A program made the translations under genes and the position numbers. DNA of 64,000 nucleotides from an uncultured Opitutia bacterium. Lineage in GTDB: Bacteria; Verrucomicrobiota; Verrucomicrobiia; Opitutales; Opitutaceae. The notes below the pieces were generated by a model. That model did not search any database. It had not been told where the DNA came from and was given only the letters and a program-made list of their open reading frames with translations. Positions within the stretch are counted from its first letter, which is position 1. Each line of letters begins with the position of its first letter. The stretch covers positions 1 to 64,000 of the forward strand of contig CAITWF010000055.1 of the NCBI GenBank assembly GCA_903896015.1, read 5' to 3'. This document shows, piece after piece, positions 4,594-23,255 of this stretch.

Positions 4594-5385
4594 TTAATAG
4601 CGGAGGTGGTAGTTGGCGTTTGAGCCGTGCGGCGCCTCGTGGCAGCCGGAGCTCCAGCAGGTGCCCTGCATGAGGCGCGAGTTGTGATTCTGCGCACTGG
4701 GATTGATCGCGTTGGCGTTAAGCACGCCGCCGCCGGCGCTCTCGAGATGGCAGCGGAGGCAGAGATTCGCGTCGCGGGCAACGAGCATCTTCGCGTTGAC
4801 CGTGCCGTGCGGGTTGTGGCAAGAGATGCAGCCTTCGCGCATGGCGCCGTGCTCGTAGACGAACGGACCCTTTTGCTCAGTGTGGCACTTCACGCAGGTG
4901 GCGTTCATGCCCTCAAGATCGGCGCCGGTGCCGACCACCGCGTTGCCCTTGTGGACTTCGTGGCAGTCGCCGCAGCTCATCTTGCCGTTCATCACCTGGT
5001 GGCTGTTCGGCAGGCTGAACTGCGCGCGCTTGTCGAGATGGCACTGGAAGCACGTGTCGGGCGATTTCTTCGGGTTGACGATGTTCGTTTTCCCGCCGCC
5101 GGCCGCGACGTGGATGCTGCCCGCGCCGTGGCAGGCCTCGCAGCTCGTGTCGCCCAGTTTCGGATCGGCGAGGTTAAGCTTCGCGTGGCTGGCCGTGGCG
5201 AAGTGATCGGTTTTGTCTTCGTGGCATTGTTTGCACTCTTTGGTGCCAACAAATTTCGCGCCCGCGACCTGCGGCGGGGCGACGAGCGTGCGGTTCGCGG
5301 CGACGCATCCGATCAGCACGAGGCCCCAGAGGGCGGTGCCGCCGATGATGAGCGCGGTTTTATTCCAGCGAGGAGGTGAGATCAT
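4594..5385 (-). CDS. MtrA/DmsE-like periplasmic octaheme cytochrome c
   Basis: Predicted electron wire inserted into the MtrB-like barrel. The 263-residue protein has an N-terminal hydrophobic segment (about residues 10-27, WGLVLIGC) that could be a lipobox or membrane anchor. Seven CXXCH haem sites follow: CKQCH, CEACH, CFQCH, CGDCH, CVKCH, CISCH, CLRCH. An eighth near the end is CWSSGCH (C-X4-CH), followed by EAPHGSN and the end motif NYHLRY typical of DmsE/MtrA-type proteins. Classical MtrA/DmsE members have ten haems, so this is a shorter variant. It is the first gene of the operon, starting at ATG 5385 and transcribed divergently from the small cytochrome c at 5686. Confidence 0.85.
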   Translation of the reverse strand: MISPPRWNKTALIIGGTALWGLVLIGCVAANRTLVAPPQVAGAKFVGTKECKQCHEDKTDHFATASHAKLNLADPKLGDTSCEACHGAGSIHVAAGGGKTNIVNPKKSPDTCFQCHLDKRAQFSLPNSHQVMNGKMSCGDCHEVHKGNAVVGTGADLEGMNATCVKCHTEQKGPFVYEHGAMREGCISCHNPHGTVNAKMLVARDANLCLRCHLESAGGGVLNANAINPSAQNHNSRLMQGTCWSSGCHEAPHGSNANYHLRY

Positions 5386-5685: not shown

Positions 5686-6015
5686 ATGAAAAACTCCCAC
5701 CGCCTCCTCGCGCTCGCACTCACCTGCGCCGCACTCTCCGCCTACGGCGCCGATGCCGCCGCCACCTGGACCGATCAATGCGCCAAGTGCCACGGCGCTG
5801 ACGGCAAGGGTGAAACCAAAATGGGCAAGAAGCTCGGCATCGCCGATCTCACCGACGCCGCCATCCAAGCGAAGTTCACCGACGCCGACGTCCTAAAATT
5901 CGTGAAGGAGGGCATCAAGGACAAGGAAGGTAAGCTTGCGATGAAGCCGATCGAGGGCCTCACCGACGACGACATCAAGGCCCTCGTGCCCGTGGTCCGC
6001 GGCTTCAAGAAATAA
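5686..6015 (+). CDS. Small periplasmic class I cytochrome c
   Basis: A 109-residue soluble electron carrier. A signal peptide (about residues 1-21, …LSAYGADA) precedes one haem site, CAKCHGADGKG, and the likely axial Met lies in KLAMKPIEGLTDDDIKALV. The ATG at 5686 starts a clean signal peptide; longer versions of the frame lack one. It begins the operon 5686-10049 and would shuttle electrons between the inner-membrane complex encoded downstream and the octaheme cytochrome encoded divergently (inference). A close paralog of the same size is encoded at 23268-23603. Confidence 0.88.
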   Translation: MKNSHRLLALALTCAALSAYGADAAATWTDQCAKCHGADGKGETKMGKKLGIADLTDAAIQAKFTDADVLKFVKEGIKDKEGKLAMKPIEGLTDDDIKALVPVVRGFKK

Positions 6016-6040: not shown

Positions 6041-6718
6041 ATGAACTATTCTCCCCCGTCTGCGCCAAACGAGAAAGCCGCCCGCACCAACTTAATGCTG
6101 GTTGGCATCGCGGTGGGGTTTCTCGTGTTCGCGGCGTTGTTCACGAAAAACCTCTGGGGTCGCGTCGAACCGCGAAAGGAAATTCCACTCGTCGACAAAA
6201 AATTCCTCGAGACCACGCCGTGGCGCAAGACCTACGCGGATTTCGTGAAGGCCAAGGACAAGGATGCGCTCGAGGACTACGATTGCTACGGCTGCCACGA
6301 GAAGAACAAGGCTCCACCGATCCGTTATGACAAGGCCGGGAAGATTCTCATCCCAAAGGAGCATTCCGACATCGTGATGGGCCACGGCTCGCACGATCGA
6401 AACAATCTCTGCTTCAACTGCCACAACGAGCAGAACCTCACAACGCTCCAGGTCCGCGACGGTCGCGAAGTGAAGTTCGATAACATCCCGCCGCTGTGCG
6501 GCAGCTGCCACGGCCCGACCTACCGCGACTGGGAAGCCGGCGCACACGGTCGGATCAGTGGCAGTTGGAACCACGCCAACGAGGCCGACTTCACCCGGCT
6601 CAGTTGTGCAAACTGCCACAACCCGCACGCGCCGAAAATTCCCACGCGCGAGCCCGCTCCCGGCCCGCATCTCCTGCGCGCCAATCCGGAAACCCACGCC
6701 ACCGAGGCGACCCACTGA
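6041..6718 (+). CDS. Membrane-anchored tetraheme cytochrome c
   Basis: A 225-residue protein with one N-terminal transmembrane anchor (about residues 17-36, LMLVGIAVGFLVFAALF) and a periplasmic domain carrying four haem sites: CYGCH, CFNCH, CGSCH and CANCHNPH. Together with the following ferredoxin and NrfD subunits it forms a cytochrome/iron-sulfur/NrfD set as in Hmc, Qrc or alternative-complex-III-like quinone oxidoreductases, where the cytochrome is the periplasmic electron entry or exit. It starts 26 nt after the small cytochrome; the next gene starts 1 nt past its stop. The exact family is not recognised beyond 'cytochrome c3-like'. Confidence 0.82.
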   Translation: MNYSPPSAPNEKAARTNLMLVGIAVGFLVFAALFTKNLWGRVEPRKEIPLVDKKFLETTPWRKTYADFVKAKDKDALEDYDCYGCHEKNKAPPIRYDKAGKILIPKEHSDIVMGHGSHDRNNLCFNCHNEQNLTTLQVRDGREVKFDNIPPLCGSCHGPTYRDWEAGAHGRISGSWNHANEADFTRLSCANCHNPHAPKIPTREPAPGPHLLRANPETHATEATH

Positions 6719-6719
6719 C

Positions 6720-7664
6720 ATGGCTCCCAACTCTCCCTCACTCGACAAAACCTCCGACGCCGCGATGTCGCGTCGCAATTTTTTGCGCGGCTCCGCGGCC
6801 GTCGGCGGACTCACGGCGCTCGCCGCCAGTCTCTCGCCGCTGCGCGAGTTGCATGATTTCACCAACACCGATCAGTTCCTCCAGAAATATTACAAGGAAC
6901 TCACGCCCGACGACATGGCTAAGGTCCTCAAGCGCATCGAGAGCGAGGTCGAAAAAAACTACGGCGTCCGTCCGCACGTTCGCGATCTCAAGCCGATGGA
7001 CGGCGTCGAGTTCGTCTACTGTCTGAATCTCACGCGCTGCATCGGCTGCCGTAAATGCGTCCATGCCTGCGTCAACGAGAACAACCAGTCGCGCAGCCCC
7101 GAGATCCAATATATCCGCGTGCTCAAGCTGCCGCACGGCTCGATGGACGTGGAGAAGGCCGATCAGAATTACGCGCCGGCGTCGGTGCCGGAAAAGGGAT
7201 TTTTCTACATGCCGGTGCAATGCCAGCAGTGCAAAAATCCGCCGTGCGTGAAAGTCTGCCCCGTCCACGCCACGTGGCAGGAGAAGGATGGCATCACCGT
7301 AATCGACTACGACTGGTGCATCGGCTGCCGCTACTGCGAGGCCGCGTGTCCGTATTTCGCGCGGCGCTTCAATTTCACGAAACCGGAAATTCCGAAGGAC
7401 CGGCTTAACACGAATATGGCCTACCTCGGCAACCGCCCGCGCAAACAGGGCGTGATGGAGAAATGCCACTTCTGCATCCAGCGCACGCGCGCGGGCCGCT
7501 ACCCGGCGTGTCTCGAAGTCTGCCCCGTCGGCGCACGCAAATTCGGCAACATCCTCGATCCGAACAGCGAGGTTTCCTACATCCTCCGCGAGAAACGCGT
7601 GTTCATTCAGTTGAAGGAGGAAATGGGGACCTCCCCGCGCTTCTTCTACTACTTCGACAAATAG
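6720..7664 (+). CDS. Tat-exported ferredoxin subunit with four [4Fe-4S] motifs
   Basis: Iron-sulfur subunit (HybA/DmsB/NrfC-like) of a quinone oxidoreductase. The 314-residue protein has a twin-arginine signal (SRRNFLRGSAAVGG at residues about 17-30), so it is folded before export and faces the periplasm. Four cysteine sets are visible: CIGCRKCVHAC, CQQCKNPPCVKVC, CIGCRYCEAAC and CHFCIQRTRAGRYPACLEVC, enough for four cubane clusters. The start at 6720 lies 2 nt after the preceding stop and just ahead of the Tat signal. It should pass electrons between the tetraheme cytochrome and the NrfD-type subunit encoded next. Confidence 0.9.
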   Translation: MAPNSPSLDKTSDAAMSRRNFLRGSAAVGGLTALAASLSPLRELHDFTNTDQFLQKYYKELTPDDMAKVLKRIESEVEKNYGVRPHVRDLKPMDGVEFVYCLNLTRCIGCRKCVHACVNENNQSRSPEIQYIRVLKLPHGSMDVEKADQNYAPASVPEKGFFYMPVQCQQCKNPPCVKVCPVHATWQEKDGITVIDYDWCIGCRYCEAACPYFARRFNFTKPEIPKDRLNTNMAYLGNRPRKQGVMEKCHFCIQRTRAGRYPACLEVCPVGARKFGNILDPNSEVSYILREKRVFIQLKEEMGTSPRFFYYFDK

Positions 7665-7730: not shown

Positions 7731-9476
7731 ATGATCTCCGTCGCGAAAAACTATTTCCGCTTCATCACGCGGTGCGCCCGCATCGCGTTCGTCGGCGACT
7801 GGCGCTACTACGCTTGGATGGGCGCGCTCACCCTCGTCGCCCTCCTCGGGCTCAACGCCTACTGCAAGCAGTTCGTCAACGGACTCATCGTCACCGGCAT
7901 GAGCGACGAGGTGTCGTGGGGCGTTTACATCGCCAACTTCACCTTCCTCGTCGGCGTCGCTGCCGCCGCCGTCATGATGGTCATTCCTGTCTACATCTAC
8001 GACAACGAGGAGCTGCACGATCTCGTGATCTTCGGCGAGCTGCTCGCGGTCGCCGCGATCGTGATGTGCCTGCTCTTCGTCACCGTCGATCTCGGGCGGC
8101 CGGATCGGTTCTGGCATCTCATCCCAGGCATCGGGCAACTCAACTTCCCCGCGTCGATGCTGAGCTGGGACGTCATTGTCCTCAACGGCTACCTTCTGCT
8201 CAACGTCTGGATTTGCGGTTACCTGCTCTACTCGCGCTATCAGGGAAAGAAGCCGTCGAAGTGGTTCTACATTCCGTTCGTGTTTACCGCGATCGTGTGG
8301 GCCGTCTCGATTCACACCGTTACGGCGTTCCTCTACGTCGGCCTTGGCGGCCGGCCGTTCTGGAATTCCGCGATCGTCGGCCCGCGGTTCCTCGCCTCGG
8401 CGTTCGCCGCCGGCCCCGCGCTGATCATTCTTGCGCTGCAGGTCATCCGGCGCGTCACCGCCTCCACGTCGGAAGACGAGGCGATCGCGCTGCGCGCCGC
8501 GCAGACGGTGCATCCCACGAGCCGGCCCGCGACCGAATCCCACCTAGATCTTCTCGCTCAGCACCTGCCCGAAATCGCCGCGCTCACCCCGACCGAGCGG
8601 GCGGAGTGCCTCGCGGGCGCGACGGTGTTCGACGTCACGACCGGCGCGGTGTTGCTGAAGCAGGGCGAGACCGACACGCACGCGTTTTTTGTCCTCAACG
8701 GCCGCGTCGTCGTGAAGCGCGAGGAGAGCGGCCGCTTCCGCATCACGCGCAGTGTCGTCCCCGGCGGCCAGTTCGGTGAAGTTTCCGCACTGCAGGCCAC
8801 GCCGCGCCAGGCCACCGCGGTCGCCGAGGAGCCGACGAGCGTGCTCTGCGTTCCCGCTGAATCGCTGCGCGTGCTGCTGCACAACCCGAAGGTCGAGCCC
8901 GTCATCCGCTCGCACATGGGCGAGCGTCTCATGATGAGCGATCATGCGCTCCTTACGCTGCGCGGCATCGTGCAGGTTTCGATGATCATCAATGTCTTCC
9001 TGCTCGCATGCGAAGTCTTCAAGGAATTCTACTCCGGCACCGCGCACGGCATCTCCGCGCGCTACCTCTTCATCGGCCTCGAAGGCCACCACGCGCTCGT
9101 GCCGTGGATCTGGACTGCGATCGGCCTCAACCTCATCGCGATGACTATCCTCCTGCTGCCCGTCAGCCGCAGCCTGAAATATCTGAACATCGCCTGCGTG
9201 CTCAGCATCGTCGGCATCTGGATTGAAAAGGGCATGGGCCTCGTCATCCCGGGCTTCATCCCCACACCGCTCGGCGCCGTCGTCGACTACCTGCCGTCGC
9301 TCAACGAGACGCTCGTGTGCCTCGGCATCTGGGCGTTCGGCCTTCTGCTCTACACCATCTTCCTTCGTATGTCCGTGCCAATTCTCCAAGGCCGCATGAC
9401 ACGGGCCAACGAGGGCAAGGTGGACGATGCCAGCGGTGAAGCGCTCCCACGCGCCTCCGCCGCACCAGCCCACTAA
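7731..9476 (+). CDS. NrfD-type quinone subunit with internal cyclic-nucleotide-binding domain
   Basis: Integral membrane subunit that reacts with the quinone pool. The 581-residue protein has about six transmembrane helices in residues 30-245, then a soluble cyclic-nucleotide-binding (CNB) domain at about 268-402, then about four more helices (408-548); ten helices in all is the ActC/HmcC-type NrfD layout. The CNB part contains GAVLLKQGETDTHAFFVLNG, VVVKREESGRF and the phosphate-binding cassette FGEVSALQATPRQATAVAEE, which keeps the key Glu and Arg that bind the cyclic phosphate. Typical NrfD proteins lack such a domain, so quinone chemistry here may be allosterically gated by cAMP or a similar ligand (inference). 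It follows the ferredoxin gene by 66 nt. Confidence 0.88.
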   Translation: MISVAKNYFRFITRCARIAFVGDWRYYAWMGALTLVALLGLNAYCKQFVNGLIVTGMSDEVSWGVYIANFTFLVGVAAAAVMMVIPVYIYDNEELHDLVIFGELLAVAAIVMCLLFVTVDLGRPDRFWHLIPGIGQLNFPASMLSWDVIVLNGYLLLNVWICGYLLYSRYQGKKPSKWFYIPFVFTAIVWAVSIHTVTAFLYVGLGGRPFWNSAIVGPRFLASAFAAGPALIILALQVIRRVTASTSEDEAIALRAAQTVHPTSRPATESHLDLLAQHLPEIAALTPTERAECLAGATVFDVTTGAVLLKQGETDTHAFFVLNGRVVVKREESGRFRITRSVVPGGQFGEVSALQATPRQATAVAEEPTSVLCVPAESLRVLLHNPKVEPVIRSHMGERLMMSDHALLTLRGIVQVSMIINVFLLACEVFKEFYSGTAHGISARYLFIGLEGHHALVPWIWTAIGLNLIAMTILLLPVSRSLKYLNIACVLSIVGIWIEKGMGLVIPGFIPTPLGAVVDYLPSLNETLVCLGIWAFGLLLYTIFLRMSVPILQGRMTRANEGKVDDASGEALPRASAAPAH

Positions 9477-13556: not shown

Positions 13557-15761
13557 ATGCGACTCAGGGAAAACCCTTTTACCATGCGTGCCGGACAACC
13601 TGCTTCGGATACCACGCCCGCCCGCCGCGGATCGCGGCCCGGGTGCCTGTTGGCGGGGCTGTGGCTCGCCGCCCTCACCGCGATCGGTTTTGGCGCCGAG
13701 CCGGTGAAACCCGCGGCACCGGCGCCGACGGCCAGCACGGCCTGCCTCGCCTGTCACAGCGACGACAACGCCAAATCCGTGCACCGCGCGTTGGAGTGCG
13801 CCGACTGTCACGAAAAATATGACGGCGACGCCCTTCCGCACCGCTCGCCGATGGTGCCGGTCGATTGCACGTCGTGTCACGACGCGACGGCGAAGAAGCA
13901 CGCATTTCACCCGCGCCTCGCGCAGCAGCCGGTGCCCGCCGGCAAGGACACCTCCTGCGTCGGCTGCCACGGCACGCACGCGACCGCGGCGGTGAAGAGT
14001 CCCGCGTTTGCGTTCAACGATGGGCCGCAGGCGAAGGCCTGCGGCGAGTGCCACGTCGCGGCGCGCGATCATTTTCTGGCGTCGGCGCATGGCCGTGCGT
14101 TCGCGGCGAAGGAGGCCAACGCACCCGAATGCCTCACCTGCCATCGGCAGCCCGTCGTCGCTCTCGCGCCCGCAAAGATTACGCTCGCGCAAAAGCTCGA
14201 GCAGACGAAGCAGTGCGAGTCGTGCCACGTTGGAAAAGTGAACGTCGCCAATCAGGCGGTGCGCGGCTCAAAGTTCGTCTCCTCCTTCGATCAGAGCGTG
14301 CATGGCGCGGCGCTCCTCGCCGGCAAAGTCGGCGCCGCCAACTGCGTCGACTGCCACGGCGCGCACGAGATGAACCGCGCGCTCGTCGGCAGCGCCAAGG
14401 TCAACAAGCTCCGCGTCGCCGACACGTGCGCGAATTGCCACGAGAAAATCGCCACGGAGTTTGCCGGCAGTGTCCACGCTGCCGCGCTCGCCAAGGGCAA
14501 CCTCGACTCCGCGGCCTGCACCGACTGCCACGGCGAGCACGCGATCCGAAGCCACACCGACGCCGCCTCGCCCGTCAACGCCAAGAACGTGACCCAGCAG
14601 GTCTGCGCCAACTGCCACGCCTCGCTCCGCCTCACGCAAAAATACGGGCTGCCGTCGCAGAGTTTGCAGACCTTCGCCGACAGTTACCACGGCCTCGCGG
14701 TGCGCGGCGGCGCCGTCGAAGTCGTCAACTGCGCCAGCTGCCACAACTCGCACGCCATCAAATCGCAGACCGATCCGACCTCGAGCATCCATCCGACCCA
14801 TCTCGCGCAGACGTGCGGCCAGTGCCATCCGGGCGCCAACACGCGCTTCGCCGTCGGCAAGGTCCACGTCAGCCCCGAGGCCGCCCAGGGCGCCGACGGC
14901 AACAGCCCGATCCTTTATCTCATCTCCAGCCTCTACGTCGTGCTGATCGTCGCGGTGGTCGGTGGCATGTTTTTTCACAACGCGCTCGATTTCCTAAAGA
15001 AAATCCGGCGCAAGCTCGCGATCCAGAAAGGCGCGATCGCCGAGCCTTACGTAGCCCACCGGCTCTATCTGCGCATGAGCCGGCATGAGCGCTGGCAGCA
15101 CGCGATCCTCATGTTGAGTTTCACGCTGCTCGTGGTCACGGGCTTCATGCTGCGCTATCCCGAGGCTTGGTGGGTCGTCGCGATCCGGCGCGTAAGCGTG
15201 CGCGCCTTCGAGTGGCGCGGCTGGATCCATCGCGGCGCGGGTGTCGTTATGCTCGCCTCCGGACTCTGGCACTTCGGTTACCTCGCGTTCACCGCCCGCG
15301 GTCGCCAGCTCTTCCGCGATCTCCTCCCGCGCTGGCGCGACGCCACCGATCCGATCGCCGTGATGAAATACAACCTCGGCCTCGCGCCGACCAAGCCGGC
15401 CTTCCCGCGTTTCTGCTACATTGAGAAGGCCGAGTATTGGGCGATGATGTGGGGCACGTTTCTCATGGGTGTGACCGGAGCGATCCTGTGGTTTGACAAC
15501 ACCTCGATCGGGCTCTTCACGAAACTAGGCTTCGACATCTCACGCACCGTGCACTTCTACGAGGCAATCCTCGCGACGCTCGCGATCCTCGTCTGGCATT
15601 TCTATTTCGTGATTTTCAATCCGGACGTCTACCCCATGAGCCTCGCCTGGCTCACCGGCAAGATGTCGGAGCGCGAGATGCTCGACGAACACCCGCTCGA
15701 ACTTGCGCGCCTCAAGGCCGAGGTCGCCGCCAAGCGACACGAGCCGCCGCCCAGCGCCTAA
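13557..15761 (+). CDS. CbcL-like fusion: 13-haem cytochrome c plus cytochrome b membrane domain
   Basis: Likely menaquinol oxidase that moves electrons to periplasmic carriers. The 734-residue protein has a signal anchor (about residues 28-46), a periplasmic part with 13 CXXCH motifs (CLACH, CADCH, CTSCH, CVGCH, CGECH, CLTCH, CESCH, CVDCH, CANCH, CTDCH, CANCH, CASCH, CGQCH; residues about 62-425), and a membrane domain (about 460-700) with several helices and histidines (WQHAIL, GWIHRGAG, LWHFGYL, VHFYEAIL, VWHFYFV) that fit a di-haem cytochrome b561/FdnI-type fold. Geobacter CbcL has the same architecture with nine c-haems. An internal ATG at 13584 could also start it. It is transcribed alone, divergent from the HemN-like gene. 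Confidence 0.87.
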   Translation: MRLRENPFTMRAGQPASDTTPARRGSRPGCLLAGLWLAALTAIGFGAEPVKPAAPAPTASTACLACHSDDNAKSVHRALECADCHEKYDGDALPHRSPMVPVDCTSCHDATAKKHAFHPRLAQQPVPAGKDTSCVGCHGTHATAAVKSPAFAFNDGPQAKACGECHVAARDHFLASAHGRAFAAKEANAPECLTCHRQPVVALAPAKITLAQKLEQTKQCESCHVGKVNVANQAVRGSKFVSSFDQSVHGAALLAGKVGAANCVDCHGAHEMNRALVGSAKVNKLRVADTCANCHEKIATEFAGSVHAAALAKGNLDSAACTDCHGEHAIRSHTDAASPVNAKNVTQQVCANCHASLRLTQKYGLPSQSLQTFADSYHGLAVRGGAVEVVNCASCHNSHAIKSQTDPTSSIHPTHLAQTCGQCHPGANTRFAVGKVHVSPEAAQGADGNSPILYLISSLYVVLIVAVVGGMFFHNALDFLKKIRRKLAIQKGAIAEPYVAHRLYLRMSRHERWQHAILMLSFTLLVVTGFMLRYPEAWWVVAIRRVSVRAFEWRGWIHRGAGVVMLASGLWHFGYLAFTARGRQLFRDLLPRWRDATDPIAVMKYNLGLAPTKPAFPRFCYIEKAEYWAMMWGTFLMGVTGAILWFDNTSIGLFTKLGFDISRTVHFYEAILATLAILVWHFYFVIFNPDVYPMSLAWLTGKMSEREMLDEHPLELARLKAEVAAKRHEPPPSA

Positions 15762-19442: not shown

Positions 19443-21590
19443 TCAGTGCCCGAGCCGCGAGGCCATGGCGTAGATGATCAAAGCGAGGAGCACGAGGCCG
19501 GTGCCGAAGAAGATGAAGCCCATGGCCTTCGCCATTTTCTTCCGCCCCTCCCACTCATCCTTCACGCGGAAACGCTCTAGGGTGCCGCTCGCCACGAGGC
19601 GATCATACCAGCGCTTTCGCTCGTGCAGCATCTCGGTCTGCGAGACACGGCCCGAGAAGATGACGGTGTCCATCGGGAATTTCTCGATGCGGAAATGCGT
19701 GTTGAAAAAATGGAAGGTGAAGATGAAGCCTGCAGCCAGCAGCGCCTCGTCGGAGTGGACCACGAGCGCAATGTTCATGATCCAACCGGGCATGAACTTC
19801 GTGAAAAACGCCGGGAACCACAGGATGAGCCCCGAGAAGCCGATGATCGTCACGCCCCAGAACACGGCGAGGTAGTCGAAGCGTTCCCAATAGGTCCAGC
19901 GATCGAACTGCGGGCGCGGGCCCTTGCCGAAGAACCATTTTTGGTGCGCCACGAAATCGCGGAAATCCTGGATCGACGGAACCATCGAGTCGGGACCAAA
20001 AACGGAGCTCCAGATGCGTTTCACCGAAATGCGGCCGGTCTGCGGATCGCGGATCGAGCCGCGCGCCCGCCAGAGTGCGACCACGCGGTCGCTAATGTGC
20101 AGCACGAAATACGTGAACGTGATCACCGCGCCGAAATGGTGCAACGACCGGGCGACACCGGCGCCGCCCATGAGCTTGAAGATCGCACGGGCCCATTCGG
20201 TGTAGTAGAACTTGAGCGGCATGCCCGTGATCACGAGGAGCAGGAAACTCGTCACCACCATCAGGTGCAGCGTGCGCTCGAACGGCGTGAACCGCGTGAA
20301 CTGCACGTCGTCCCGGTTCTGCTTGATGACCGCCTCGCGAAACGTCTTCGAGTCCGTCAGGTAGAGGTAGATCGAGCGGAAGAGCCAGAAGAGCGTGTGC
20401 AGGCCGAAGAACGAAAACGTGCCGACGAGCAGCGCCGTCATGAACCAAAAAACCTTGTTCAGGATCGGATAGTGGACGCTATCGAGCGGGTTAGCGTGCG
20501 GCTGGTAGCTCGTGAAGTTGACGTTGGCGCCGGCGTGGCACTGCGCGCACGTGCCGACAATCTTATCCTTCGAAAGCCGCGAGCGCGGATCGCTGACAGG
20601 GAAGACGTCGTGATGGCCGTGGCAGTCGTAGCACGCGGCAACGTCGGAGGCGACGTTGGGCTGGCCGAGCGCCATCGCCTTGCCGTGGTAGGTCTCGTTG
20701 TAGTGCTCGAGCCGATCGGCGTGGCACTTGCCGCAACTCGCGTCGCTGCCGGCCTTGAAGTGCGCGGTCGCGGGTTTCTCGATGTCGTGCGCGCTGTGGC
20801 AGTCGGTGCAGACCGGACCCCGCTTGTCGCCTTTCGCGAGGAGCTGGCCGTGGACGCTCGCGTTGTAGGTTTCCTCGATGCCAACGTGGCAGGTGCCACA
20901 GGACTTCGCGATGTTGGCGTGGCTCGTGTGTGAATCCTTGTCGATGCTGCGCTTGATGTCGTGGACGCCGTGGCAGTCGTTACATGAGGGCGCGACGACG
21001 AGGCCCATCTTCACGAGCGCGCGGCCGTGGATGCTGTCGAGGTAGTGGCCCGCGGCCTCGGTCTTGCCCATGCGGTAATCTTTCGTGAGCTTCGGATCGT
21101 CGTGGCAAGTGCCGCAGGTTTTCGGGAGGTTGAGCTTGAACACGGGCGAGTCGGCCTGCTTCACCGGCGAGATGTCGTGCGAGCCGTGACAGCTCACGCA
21201 GGTCGCGGCATCGGAGGCGCCGAGCTTGTGGCTCATGCCGTGGATGCTCGCGGCGAATTGCGCGGCAGGTTTCTCGTGGCACGAGCTGCACTGCGCCGGC
21301 GGCAGCTTGGATGCGTGCGGCGTCTCGGTGAGCGTCGCATGGCAGTCGATGCAGTTGAGTTTGCTGTGGACGGATTTTGCGAAGACCTCCGGCTTCACAC
21401 CGATCCACACGGGCTTCTCGCCCTTCTTCCGCGGCTTAAACTCCGCCTCGTGGCAGTCCATGCACTCGCTGTTCGGCACGGCGACTTTTTTCGGCGCGGT
21501 GGCCTCAGCCGCTCGAGCGAAGCCCGGAAGGAAAAGCGCGAGGACGAGGGCGCACACCGCAAGCCGCTGAACGGAGCAAAGGGGTTTCAT
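19443..21590 (-). CDS. CbcL-like fusion: 11-haem cytochrome c plus cytochrome b membrane domain
   Basis: Second membrane c/b fusion in the window, 715 residues. A signal peptide (about 1-27, …PGFARAAEA) precedes eleven CXXCH motifs: CMDCH, CIDCH, CSSCH, CVSCH, CGTCH, CNDCH, CGTCH, CTDCH, CGKCH, CYDCH, CAQCH (residues about 43-360). A membrane region (about 375-660) contains helices with paired histidines (RTLHLMVV, SLHHFGAV, FVLHISDR, VVHSDEAL, FTFHFFNTHF) suited to b-type haems, and a final helix at about 690-710. It probably oxidises menaquinol and passes electrons to the c-haem chain. It is in its own transcription unit with paired CGCA boxes 40-75 nt upstream. Confidence 0.87.
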   Translation of the reverse strand: MKPLCSVQRLAVCALVLALFLPGFARAAEATAPKKVAVPNSECMDCHEAEFKPRKKGEKPVWIGVKPEVFAKSVHSKLNCIDCHATLTETPHASKLPPAQCSSCHEKPAAQFAASIHGMSHKLGASDAATCVSCHGSHDISPVKQADSPVFKLNLPKTCGTCHDDPKLTKDYRMGKTEAAGHYLDSIHGRALVKMGLVVAPSCNDCHGVHDIKRSIDKDSHTSHANIAKSCGTCHVGIEETYNASVHGQLLAKGDKRGPVCTDCHSAHDIEKPATAHFKAGSDASCGKCHADRLEHYNETYHGKAMALGQPNVASDVAACYDCHGHHDVFPVSDPRSRLSKDKIVGTCAQCHAGANVNFTSYQPHANPLDSVHYPILNKVFWFMTALLVGTFSFFGLHTLFWLFRSIYLYLTDSKTFREAVIKQNRDDVQFTRFTPFERTLHLMVVTSFLLLVITGMPLKFYYTEWARAIFKLMGGAGVARSLHHFGAVITFTYFVLHISDRVVALWRARGSIRDPQTGRISVKRIWSSVFGPDSMVPSIQDFRDFVAHQKWFFGKGPRPQFDRWTYWERFDYLAVFWGVTIIGFSGLILWFPAFFTKFMPGWIMNIALVVHSDEALLAAGFIFTFHFFNTHFRIEKFPMDTVIFSGRVSQTEMLHERKRWYDRLVASGTLERFRVKDEWEGRKKMAKAMGFIFFGTGLVLLALIIYAMASRLGH

Positions 21591-21746: not shown

Positions 21747-23255
21747 TTATTTCTGGATGCCGCCGTTGTGGCAGTCCGCGCAACTGAGCTCGGGATCGAG
21801 TTCTCCGCCCGGGTGCTTGAAGGTCAGGCCCTTCGTGCTGAGCGTCTCAAGCTCGGTGCCCTTGCCCTGCGAGATCAGGGTGTGGCACGAGGTGCAGTCG
21901 CTCGAGCGCACGGTCTGGCCGAGGGCGGTCTTGTGCTTGTCGTCGTGGCAGCGGAAGCAGCCGGGCCAGTCCTTGTGGCCGATGTTGTTCGGGTAGACGC
22001 GCCAGTCCGCCTTGCGCTCCGGGAAAATCGTCGTGGAGAAAATCTGCTGCACCGTGGCAATCGCGCCGGGCAGCTCCGCGGCAATGGCCGGATCGGTGTA
22101 TTTCGCGGCCATGAAATCGGCGATCTTCTGGGCTGCCTGGCCGTCGGTGGTGATTTCTTTTTGCGTGAGCGCCTGCACGGCGACGCGTTTCACGGCGGGC
22201 AGTTTCCCGCTCAGCGTGCCGATGGCGATAGCGCGCTCGACGGTGTCGTTGGCGGTTGGGAAGGAGTGCGCGGGGCGGTTGTGGCAGTCCATGCAGTCCA
22301 TCACGCGAATCGCCTCGGGCGGCGGCTCACCCTTGAACGCCTCGGTGCGAAACACGCGGGAGGTGCCGTCCTTCCGATTCGTCACCCGCATCCAGGGGAT
22401 GTCCTGCCGCTTCACGTCGACTGCGTAATACTCAACGCGCTCGGTTTCGCTCACATGCCAGTGGATGCCGCCAAAGGGGCTGCCCGGCGCGCTGCGGTTC
22501 ACGTGGAGCAGGAGGCTCACGGTGTAGGGCGTGTTCTTCTTGTCCGACAGCGTGTGATTGAAGCTGCGCTCGACGTTGCCGGCGAACTTCGCAGGCCAGT
22601 GGCATTTCTCGCAGGTGTCCTGCGCAGGCCGGAGATTTTTCAATGGCGTCTCGATCGGGCGCTTGTAGTTGTCGAGGGTGAAGGCGATGAGCTGGTGCGT
22701 GCCGTTGAGCTTCGCCTTCACGAACCATTGCGCGCCCGAGCCGACGTGGCACTCCACGCAATCGACGCGCGCATGCGCGCCGTGCTGGTAGGCGACGAAT
22801 TCCGGGTTCATCGCCGCATGGCAGACCTGGCCGCAAAACCGGTCCGACTCCGAATAATGGTAGGTCTGGTAGCTGCCAAACGCGCTCAGCATGATGAAGG
22901 CGAGCGCCCCCGCCCCAAACAGCACGATCCATCGCTGCTGGTGGCGGTCGGAGAAATCGAGCCGCCACTTGTCAGGCGCCGTCGCCGCGTGCTTGATCGC
23001 CCAGCGGCGCTGCGCCCATGCGCCAAAAAACACCGTCGCGAGTCCCGTGATCAAAAATCCGGGCGCGACGATGTAGGTGAAGATACCAAGGTAGGGATTC
23101 TTGTCCCCCTGCGTGAAATCCATCCACACCAGCAGCGCGAACGAGAACAGCGCGCCGATCGCGAGCACGCCGCCGACCGCGCTGATCCAGTTGTTGAAGT
23201 GCGACCGGGGCCGCGGCGCTTCGCCGCGGTCAGACTGGGGGGTGGGATCGGCCAC
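21747..23255 (-). CDS. NapC/NrfH-like membrane heptaheme cytochrome c
   Basis: Membrane quinol dehydrogenase-type cytochrome, 502 residues. Three hydrophobic helices occupy residues about 22-46, 57-79 and 107-128, followed by a periplasmic domain. The first haem motif is FCGQVCHAAMNPEF, a C-X3-CH variant followed by a Met as in NrfH/NapC haem 1. Six normal motifs follow: CVECH, CEKCH, CMDCH, CFRCH, CTSCH and CADCH. The ORF begins at ATG 23255; it is followed by a strong terminator. The small cytochrome c gene upstream (23268-23603) ends 12 nt before it, so the two form an operon and the small protein is a likely redox partner. Confidence 0.85.
   Translation of the reverse strand: MADPTPQSDRGEAPRPRSHFNNWISAVGGVLAIGALFSFALLVWMDFTQGDKNPYLGIFTYIVAPGFLITGLATVFFGAWAQRRWAIKHAATAPDKWRLDFSDRHQQRWIVLFGAGALAFIMLSAFGSYQTYHYSESDRFCGQVCHAAMNPEFVAYQHGAHARVDCVECHVGSGAQWFVKAKLNGTHQLIAFTLDNYKRPIETPLKNLRPAQDTCEKCHWPAKFAGNVERSFNHTLSDKKNTPYTVSLLLHVNRSAPGSPFGGIHWHVSETERVEYYAVDVKRQDIPWMRVTNRKDGTSRVFRTEAFKGEPPPEAIRVMDCMDCHNRPAHSFPTANDTVERAIAIGTLSGKLPAVKRVAVQALTQKEITTDGQAAQKIADFMAAKYTDPAIAAELPGAIATVQQIFSTTIFPERKADWRVYPNNIGHKDWPGCFRCHDDKHKTALGQTVRSSDCTSCHTLISQGKGTELETLSTKGLTFKHPGGELDPELSCADCHNGGIQK

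Follow-up and report, generated by a model that had tools for sequence, protein, structure and literature searches.

Respiratory branches of bacteria are known to be controlled mainly via gene expression. Several described systems resemble parts of the locus presented here, which lies in a 64,000 bp stretch of DNA from an uncultured Opitutia bacterium (the window). DsrP of the DsrMKJOP complex has ten helices, with DsrO on the P-side according to the family description (PMC8076601), and this fits the topology found here. The protein encoded at 7731-9476 shares with DsrP the best curated model (NF045798), the ten helices, and a DsrO-like Tat ferredoxin and a multiheme cytochrome as partners; it differs by an inserted cyclic-nucleotide-binding (CNB) domain, a ferredoxin scoring under the DsrO cut-off, and the absence of an identified DsrM/DsrK and of dsrA. 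ActC/ActF of alternative complex III (6f0k, 8k9e, 6lod), the top structural match for the whole chain, shows about 15% identity to the protein and is without a CNB domain. Cbc4 of Geobacter (CbcSTU) and SirCD of Shewanella, which feed extracellular or periplasmic respiration, likewise combine a cytochrome, a CbcT/DsrO-like ferredoxin and a membrane quinone subunit, a likeness drawn from a single study (PMC11434368); no CNB domain is described for either.

The CNB domains of the PKA regulatory subunit, PKG, EPAC and MloK1 have their fold and the cassette FGE...PRxAT in common with the insert, but control kinases, exchange factors and channels, whereas the host here is a subunit of a quinone oxidoreductase. 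A CNB domain inserted within another fold is also present in the shell protein of family 2B encapsulins (NF041163), where, according to one report, the domain has a divergent site and binds no cyclic nucleotides (PMC12407261), in contrast to the invariant site of the present insert. The probable porin and the eight-heme cytochrome neighbouring the operon fit the clusters of a porin and a multiheme cytochrome that He et al. 2017 described in bog Verrucomicrobia and that have been proposed to serve extracellular electron transfer (PMC5615132); neither NrfD nor any cyclic-nucleotide domain is mentioned in the text of that paper. The open-access literature searched yielded no account of a CNB-bearing NrfD protein, and wider searches turned up nothing relevant.

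Architecture and predicted structure of the subunit

The open frame runs uninterrupted from ATG to stop (Table 1). Residues 54-248 match PF03916 (NrfD) with an E-value of 7.8e-37 (128 bits, gathering score 25.8), and residues 303-383 match PF00027 (cNMP_binding) with an E-value of 5.5e-18 (65 bits, gathering score 27.5). The NCBIfam DsrP model NF045798 is matched with 414 bits (cut-off 350) in two separate stretches, and CNB-free relatives score 424-426 bits against it in one unbroken stretch. Judged by its sequence, the product is an intact NrfD-family protein with DsrP, not NrfD or ActC proper, as its nearest subfamily; the original prediction, made from the sequence without database searches, had called it NrfD-type and ActC-like, of which the family assignment stands and the subfamily gives way to DsrP.

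The AlphaFold2 model, run on an alignment of 79 rows (pLDDT 84.3, pTM 0.84), displays ten membrane helices, within the range of 8-10 expected for the ActC/PsrC fold of the NrfD family, and a CNB fold comprising residues 269-397, with pLDDT mostly above 90. Since helices 1-6 (24-50, 64-89, 93-121, 143-170, 177-203 and 216-243) and helices 7-10 (404-435, 457-480, 482-504 and 524-552) flank the CNB fold, the insert is placed between helices six and seven, the position first predicted, and its edges, originally estimated at about 268-402, were refined to conserved edges at about 266-403. In Foldseek searches of the PDB, the whole chain ranks ActC chains of alternative complex III first (TM-score by target 0.64-0.68), while cAMP- or cGMP-bound PKA and PKG domains rank high for the insert (0.75 and 0.78). 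A profile built from the 44 inserted domains finds PKG, EPAC, PKA regulatory subunits, CAP and MloK1. The CNB fold, for which structure prediction had been proposed as a check, is in this way both predicted by AlphaFold2 and matched by Foldseek, a call that is not independent of the sequence match because AlphaFold has seen many CNB structures.

Table 1. Features of the subunit and its neighbouring genes; coordinates are those of the window.
Feature	Coordinates	Strand	Evidence
Probable outer-membrane porin, 743 aa	2338..4569	-	Position beside multiheme cytochrome, as in PMC5615132 clusters
MtrA/DmsE-like multiheme cytochrome	4594..5385	-	7 CxxCH and one CX4CH (CWSSGCH)
Monoheme cytochrome c	5686..6015	+	PF13442/PF00034
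Membrane-anchored 4-heme cytochrome c	6041..6718	+	4 CxxCH; Paired_CXXCH
Tat-exported ferredoxin (DsrO/QrcC-like), four [4Fe-4S] expected	6720..7664	+	Fer4 domains, Tat signal, 17 Cys
DsrP-like NrfD-family membrane subunit with inserted CNB domain, 581 aa	7731..9476	+	Open frame, PF03916, PF00027, NF045798, AlphaFold model
NrfD part 1, residues 1-243, membrane helices 1-6	7731..8459	+	Pfam, AlphaFold model; median dN/dS 0.064
Variable linker, residues 244-265	8460..8525	+	17-28 residues among 44 homologs; median dN/dS 0.55
Inserted CNB domain, residues 266-403	8526..8939	+	PF00027, Foldseek PKA/PKG, indel-free in 44 homologs; median dN/dS 0.21
Phosphate-binding cassette, residues 347-363	8769..8819	+	Glu350/Arg359 in 44/44; conserved-position enrichment p = 0.003
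Cassette Glu350	8778-8780	+	
Cassette Arg359	8805-8807	+	
NrfD part 2, residues 404-552, membrane helices 7-10	8940..9386	+	AlphaFold model; median dN/dS 0.069
Conserved operon protein, Gly/Cys/His-rich tail, 184 aa	9495..10049	+	Follows subunit at most loci

Distribution and history of the fusion

A search across 252 genomes of the window's family found a homolog in 83, about 34 of which carry the insert and the others do not; the match to the insert-free homologs is broken at about residues 243 and 402, and both forms occur within the genera g2, g5, g6, g15 and g223. Across the class, a sample of 384 genomes contains the insert in five families, the window's own and those numbered f19, f126, f96 and f124, all belonging to one Verrucomicrobiota class. 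Named genome contigs provided at least 46 loci with the insert and at least 34 without it, and the insert-bearing records, among the matches listed, are titled Opitutaceae/Opitutae, Limisphaerales, Verrucomicrobiales, Akkermansiaceae and other Verrucomicrobia. The fusion, whose recurrence the original prediction had proposed to check by such a search, is a recurrent one. Two records (L090 and L091) are titled Proteobacteria and Klebsiella pneumoniae, yet contain the verrucomicrobial operon; these titles are probably wrong, because the sequences group with other insert-bearing records. In the plasmid collection all NrfD relatives are CNB-free, and one match covers the CNB part alone.

No isolate carrying the fusion was found, the insert-bearing named records all being titled metagenome-assembled genomes among the matches listed, which would favour an artefact of assembly or binning. 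Against this stand junctions that are identical in 44 full-length records, produced with many assemblers from many samples, and an insert that is free of indels and under purifying selection. Such an artefact, whose chance we put at next to nothing, was ruled out by the architecture and boundaries that these 44 records share without indels, in line with the initial view that the frame is not an assembly join of two genes.

In a tree of the NrfD part the CNB bearers do not form one clade, and 10 changes are needed, at least three of them forced by well-supported branches. Grouping the CNB bearers as a single clade was rejected with an AU p-value of 0.03, a weak result given the long outgroup branches. 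A CNB-bearing and a CNB-free sequence (L096 and L103) are sisters, with NrfD parts that are 92% identical. That all inserted domains resemble one another and sit at a common point suggests a single insertion, with several later losses or with swaps of the gene's middle section. CNB distances covary with those of the NrfD part (Mantel r 0.57, with 0 of 2000 permutations as high), so that host gene and domain have for the most part moved together; the several losses or exchanges mean that the complex can do without the domain.

Conservation and selection of the inserted domain

Conservation was scored on the 44 full-length insert-bearing sequences. The cassette of the window's protein reads QFGEVSALQATPRQATA and contains Glu350 and Arg359, which had been noted at the outset as kept for binding a cyclic phosphate and are present in every one of these sequences; Phe348, Gly349, Ser352, Leu354 and Ala363 are invariant as well. 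Neither of the two outcomes named at the outset as refuting the prediction, an insert without the CNB fold and a cassette whose Glu and Arg are not conserved, was observed. Highly conserved positions are concentrated in the cassette (9 of 17, versus 22 of 121 elsewhere in the domain, p = 0.003). Residues 266-411 are indel-free, while the entry linker varies in length (Table 1), and M396, R399, L400, L407, L410 and R411, leading into helix 7, are invariant. On sequence pairs of at least 80% identity the CNB domain changes at about three times the rate of the NrfD part; with a median dN/dS of 0.21 it is therefore under selection, quicker than the redox core and far from neutral.

These data bear on two other readings of the domain. 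It might be ligand-free in the cell and act in assembly, in dimerisation or as a docking site for a cytoplasmic partner, as its repeated loss from a retained operon would allow and for which the very conserved charged stretch KREExGRxRITR could be an interface. The ligand-site residues, however, rank with the best-conserved positions of the CNB domain (p = 0.003), and no neighbouring partner gene was seen to track it across the compared loci; we consider this reading improbable. The domain might also sense another small molecule (a nucleoside, a metabolite or a lipid head group) with the same coupling to the complex. CNB folds elsewhere have adapted to other ligands, those of the family 2B encapsulins are thought to bind a non-identified one (PMC12407261), and two unusual invariant arginines adjoining the cassette, R337 and R340, are not explained by cyclic nucleotide binding. 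The residues that canonically hold ribose and phosphate, a Glu and an Arg, are nevertheless invariant, and another ligand seems unlikely to us. The version with an iron-sulfur or heme sensor was ruled out, as the 44 CNB sequences contain no conserved Cys or His.

Position relative to the membrane

Loop charges were averaged over 74 sequences. The N-terminus (3.7 K/R vs 1.4 D/E) and loop 4 (4.0 vs 0.1) are positively charged, as is loop 6 in the CNB-free relatives (2.3 vs 1.3), and loops 1 (0 vs 1.6) and 9 (0.1 vs 1.4) are negatively charged; the charges of loop 2 disagree with the cytoplasmic assignment. On this sequence-based criterion the CNB loop is placed in the cytoplasm, the side where cyclic nucleotides are made; the ferredoxin belongs on the opposite side by its Tat signal.

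Candidate ligand and proposed mechanism

The window's genome contains five class III cyclase (PF00211) matches, three of which display, as read by eye, the metal Asp, the substrate Lys and the Asn/Arg motifs of adenylyl cyclases. Cyclases are common throughout the family (208 of 252 genomes) and are found in 33 of 34 genomes with the CNB versus 29 of 33 with CNB-free homologs (p = 0.17). Co-occurrence was therefore dropped as a test of the ligand, and the mere presence of cyclases is used as support; comparison with the whole family gives p = 0.008, a value confounded by differing genome size. Cyclases in the genome do not prove the ligand. A cGMP-specific cassette was set aside and no base specificity is claimed, because the residue after Arg359, which helps to set this specificity, is variable.

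In CNB proteins such as PKA, CAP and CNG channels, ligand binding moves the C-terminal helical part. In the present model the last CNB helix (389-397) is followed by about six residues and then by helix 7, with fixed spacing at this exit and a loose linker at the entry; together with the invariant exit residues, this anatomy suggests that helix 7 reads out ligand binding. We propose that the PKA/PKG-like domain, inserted into the cytoplasmic loop 6-7 of a quinone-interacting DsrP-like subunit, would bind cAMP, or possibly another cyclic nucleotide, in the cytoplasm via Glu350 and Arg359. Binding would shift the CNB C-helix, the movement would be passed by the conserved, length-fixed segment 396-411 into helix 7, and the shift of helix 7 would change, in one direction or the other, quinol oxidation or a coupled proton path, so that the cell could tune one respiratory branch after translation. 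A DsrP-like quinone subunit gated by cAMP or another cyclic nucleotide, with coupling from the C-helix to helix 7, is in our judgement the best explanation of the data (probability roughly 0.6). Because dozens of genomes retain an intact sensor domain, a signal such as cAMP may act directly as the switch of a respiratory branch.

Operon context and putative redox role

The gene order cytochrome c, 4-heme cytochrome, Tat ferredoxin, DsrP-like subunit and 184-aa protein is found both with and without the insert. The divergently oriented probable porin, which has no Pfam or NCBIfam match, and the multiheme cytochrome are located beside the operon at many, though not all, loci, the flanks often being cut; this cytochrome seems to have an eighth heme site, which takes the unusual form CX4CH. 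The 184-aa protein likewise has no Pfam or NCBIfam match, and its confident AlphaFold model (pLDDT 87) has no significant match in the PDB; its tail reads GGGCSCGGH, and RYP and NYG motifs and C137 are conserved.

The ferredoxin scores 170 bits against the DsrO model, under the cut-off of 200, and no DsrM/DsrK gene was identified in the operon. A sulfite-reduction complex was ruled out despite the DsrP score, because the window's genome (97.9% complete) contains no match to dsrA. Geobacter CbcT is a homolog of DsrO, and the ferredoxin/NrfD pair SirCD can stand in for CymA as quinol dehydrogenase (PMC11434368); together with the adjoining probable porin and multiheme cytochrome, this makes transfer of electrons from quinol to cytochromes of the periplasm the most likely role of the complex. 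It is probably an inner-membrane quinol:cytochrome oxidoreductase that would feed periplasmic and extracellular acceptors.

A CNB-free relative on plasmid p1 of Flammeovirga kamogawensis (L149), with 56% identity in the N-terminal part, has napD and a molybdopterin oxidoreductase in front of it, an arrangement suggesting that this module is the quinol dehydrogenase of a Nap-type reductase outside Verrucomicrobiota, and therefore that the module can serve different end acceptors.

If a cyclic nucleotide does control the oxidoreductase directly, second-messenger signalling is tied to electron flow, and domain insertion has made a ligand-gated respiratory branch, a natural design for switchable current. 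In its widest form, a second messenger would gate, through a built-in domain, electron (and proton) flow to periplasmic or extracellular acceptors in a possibly proton-translocating complex, the module being gained and lost among close relatives; we hold this wider view tentatively, at somewhat less than even odds. The question can be tested directly, since closely related CNB-bearing and CNB-free subunits occur within the same genera and in matching operons.

At five loci a second NrfD-type subunit of a different kind, accompanied by a Tat ferredoxin of its own, adjoins the CNB-bearing subunit (L059:4832-6079, L064:5024-6259, L067:5108-6421, L073:11952-13259 and L097:4657-5907), and some operons therefore hold two quinone modules; this second subunit has no match in the window's genome. 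A few kilobases upstream of the CNB-bearing operon of L097 lies a gene (L097:1827-2546) for a protein resembling, at its start, a CRP/FNR-family or CNB regulator. The window itself encodes further candidate quinol oxidases: two multiheme cytochromes (13 and 11 CxxCH) fused to a cytochrome b561-like membrane domain, at 13557-15761 (+) and 19443-21590 (-), and a NapC/NrfH-like cytochrome at 21747-23255 (-).
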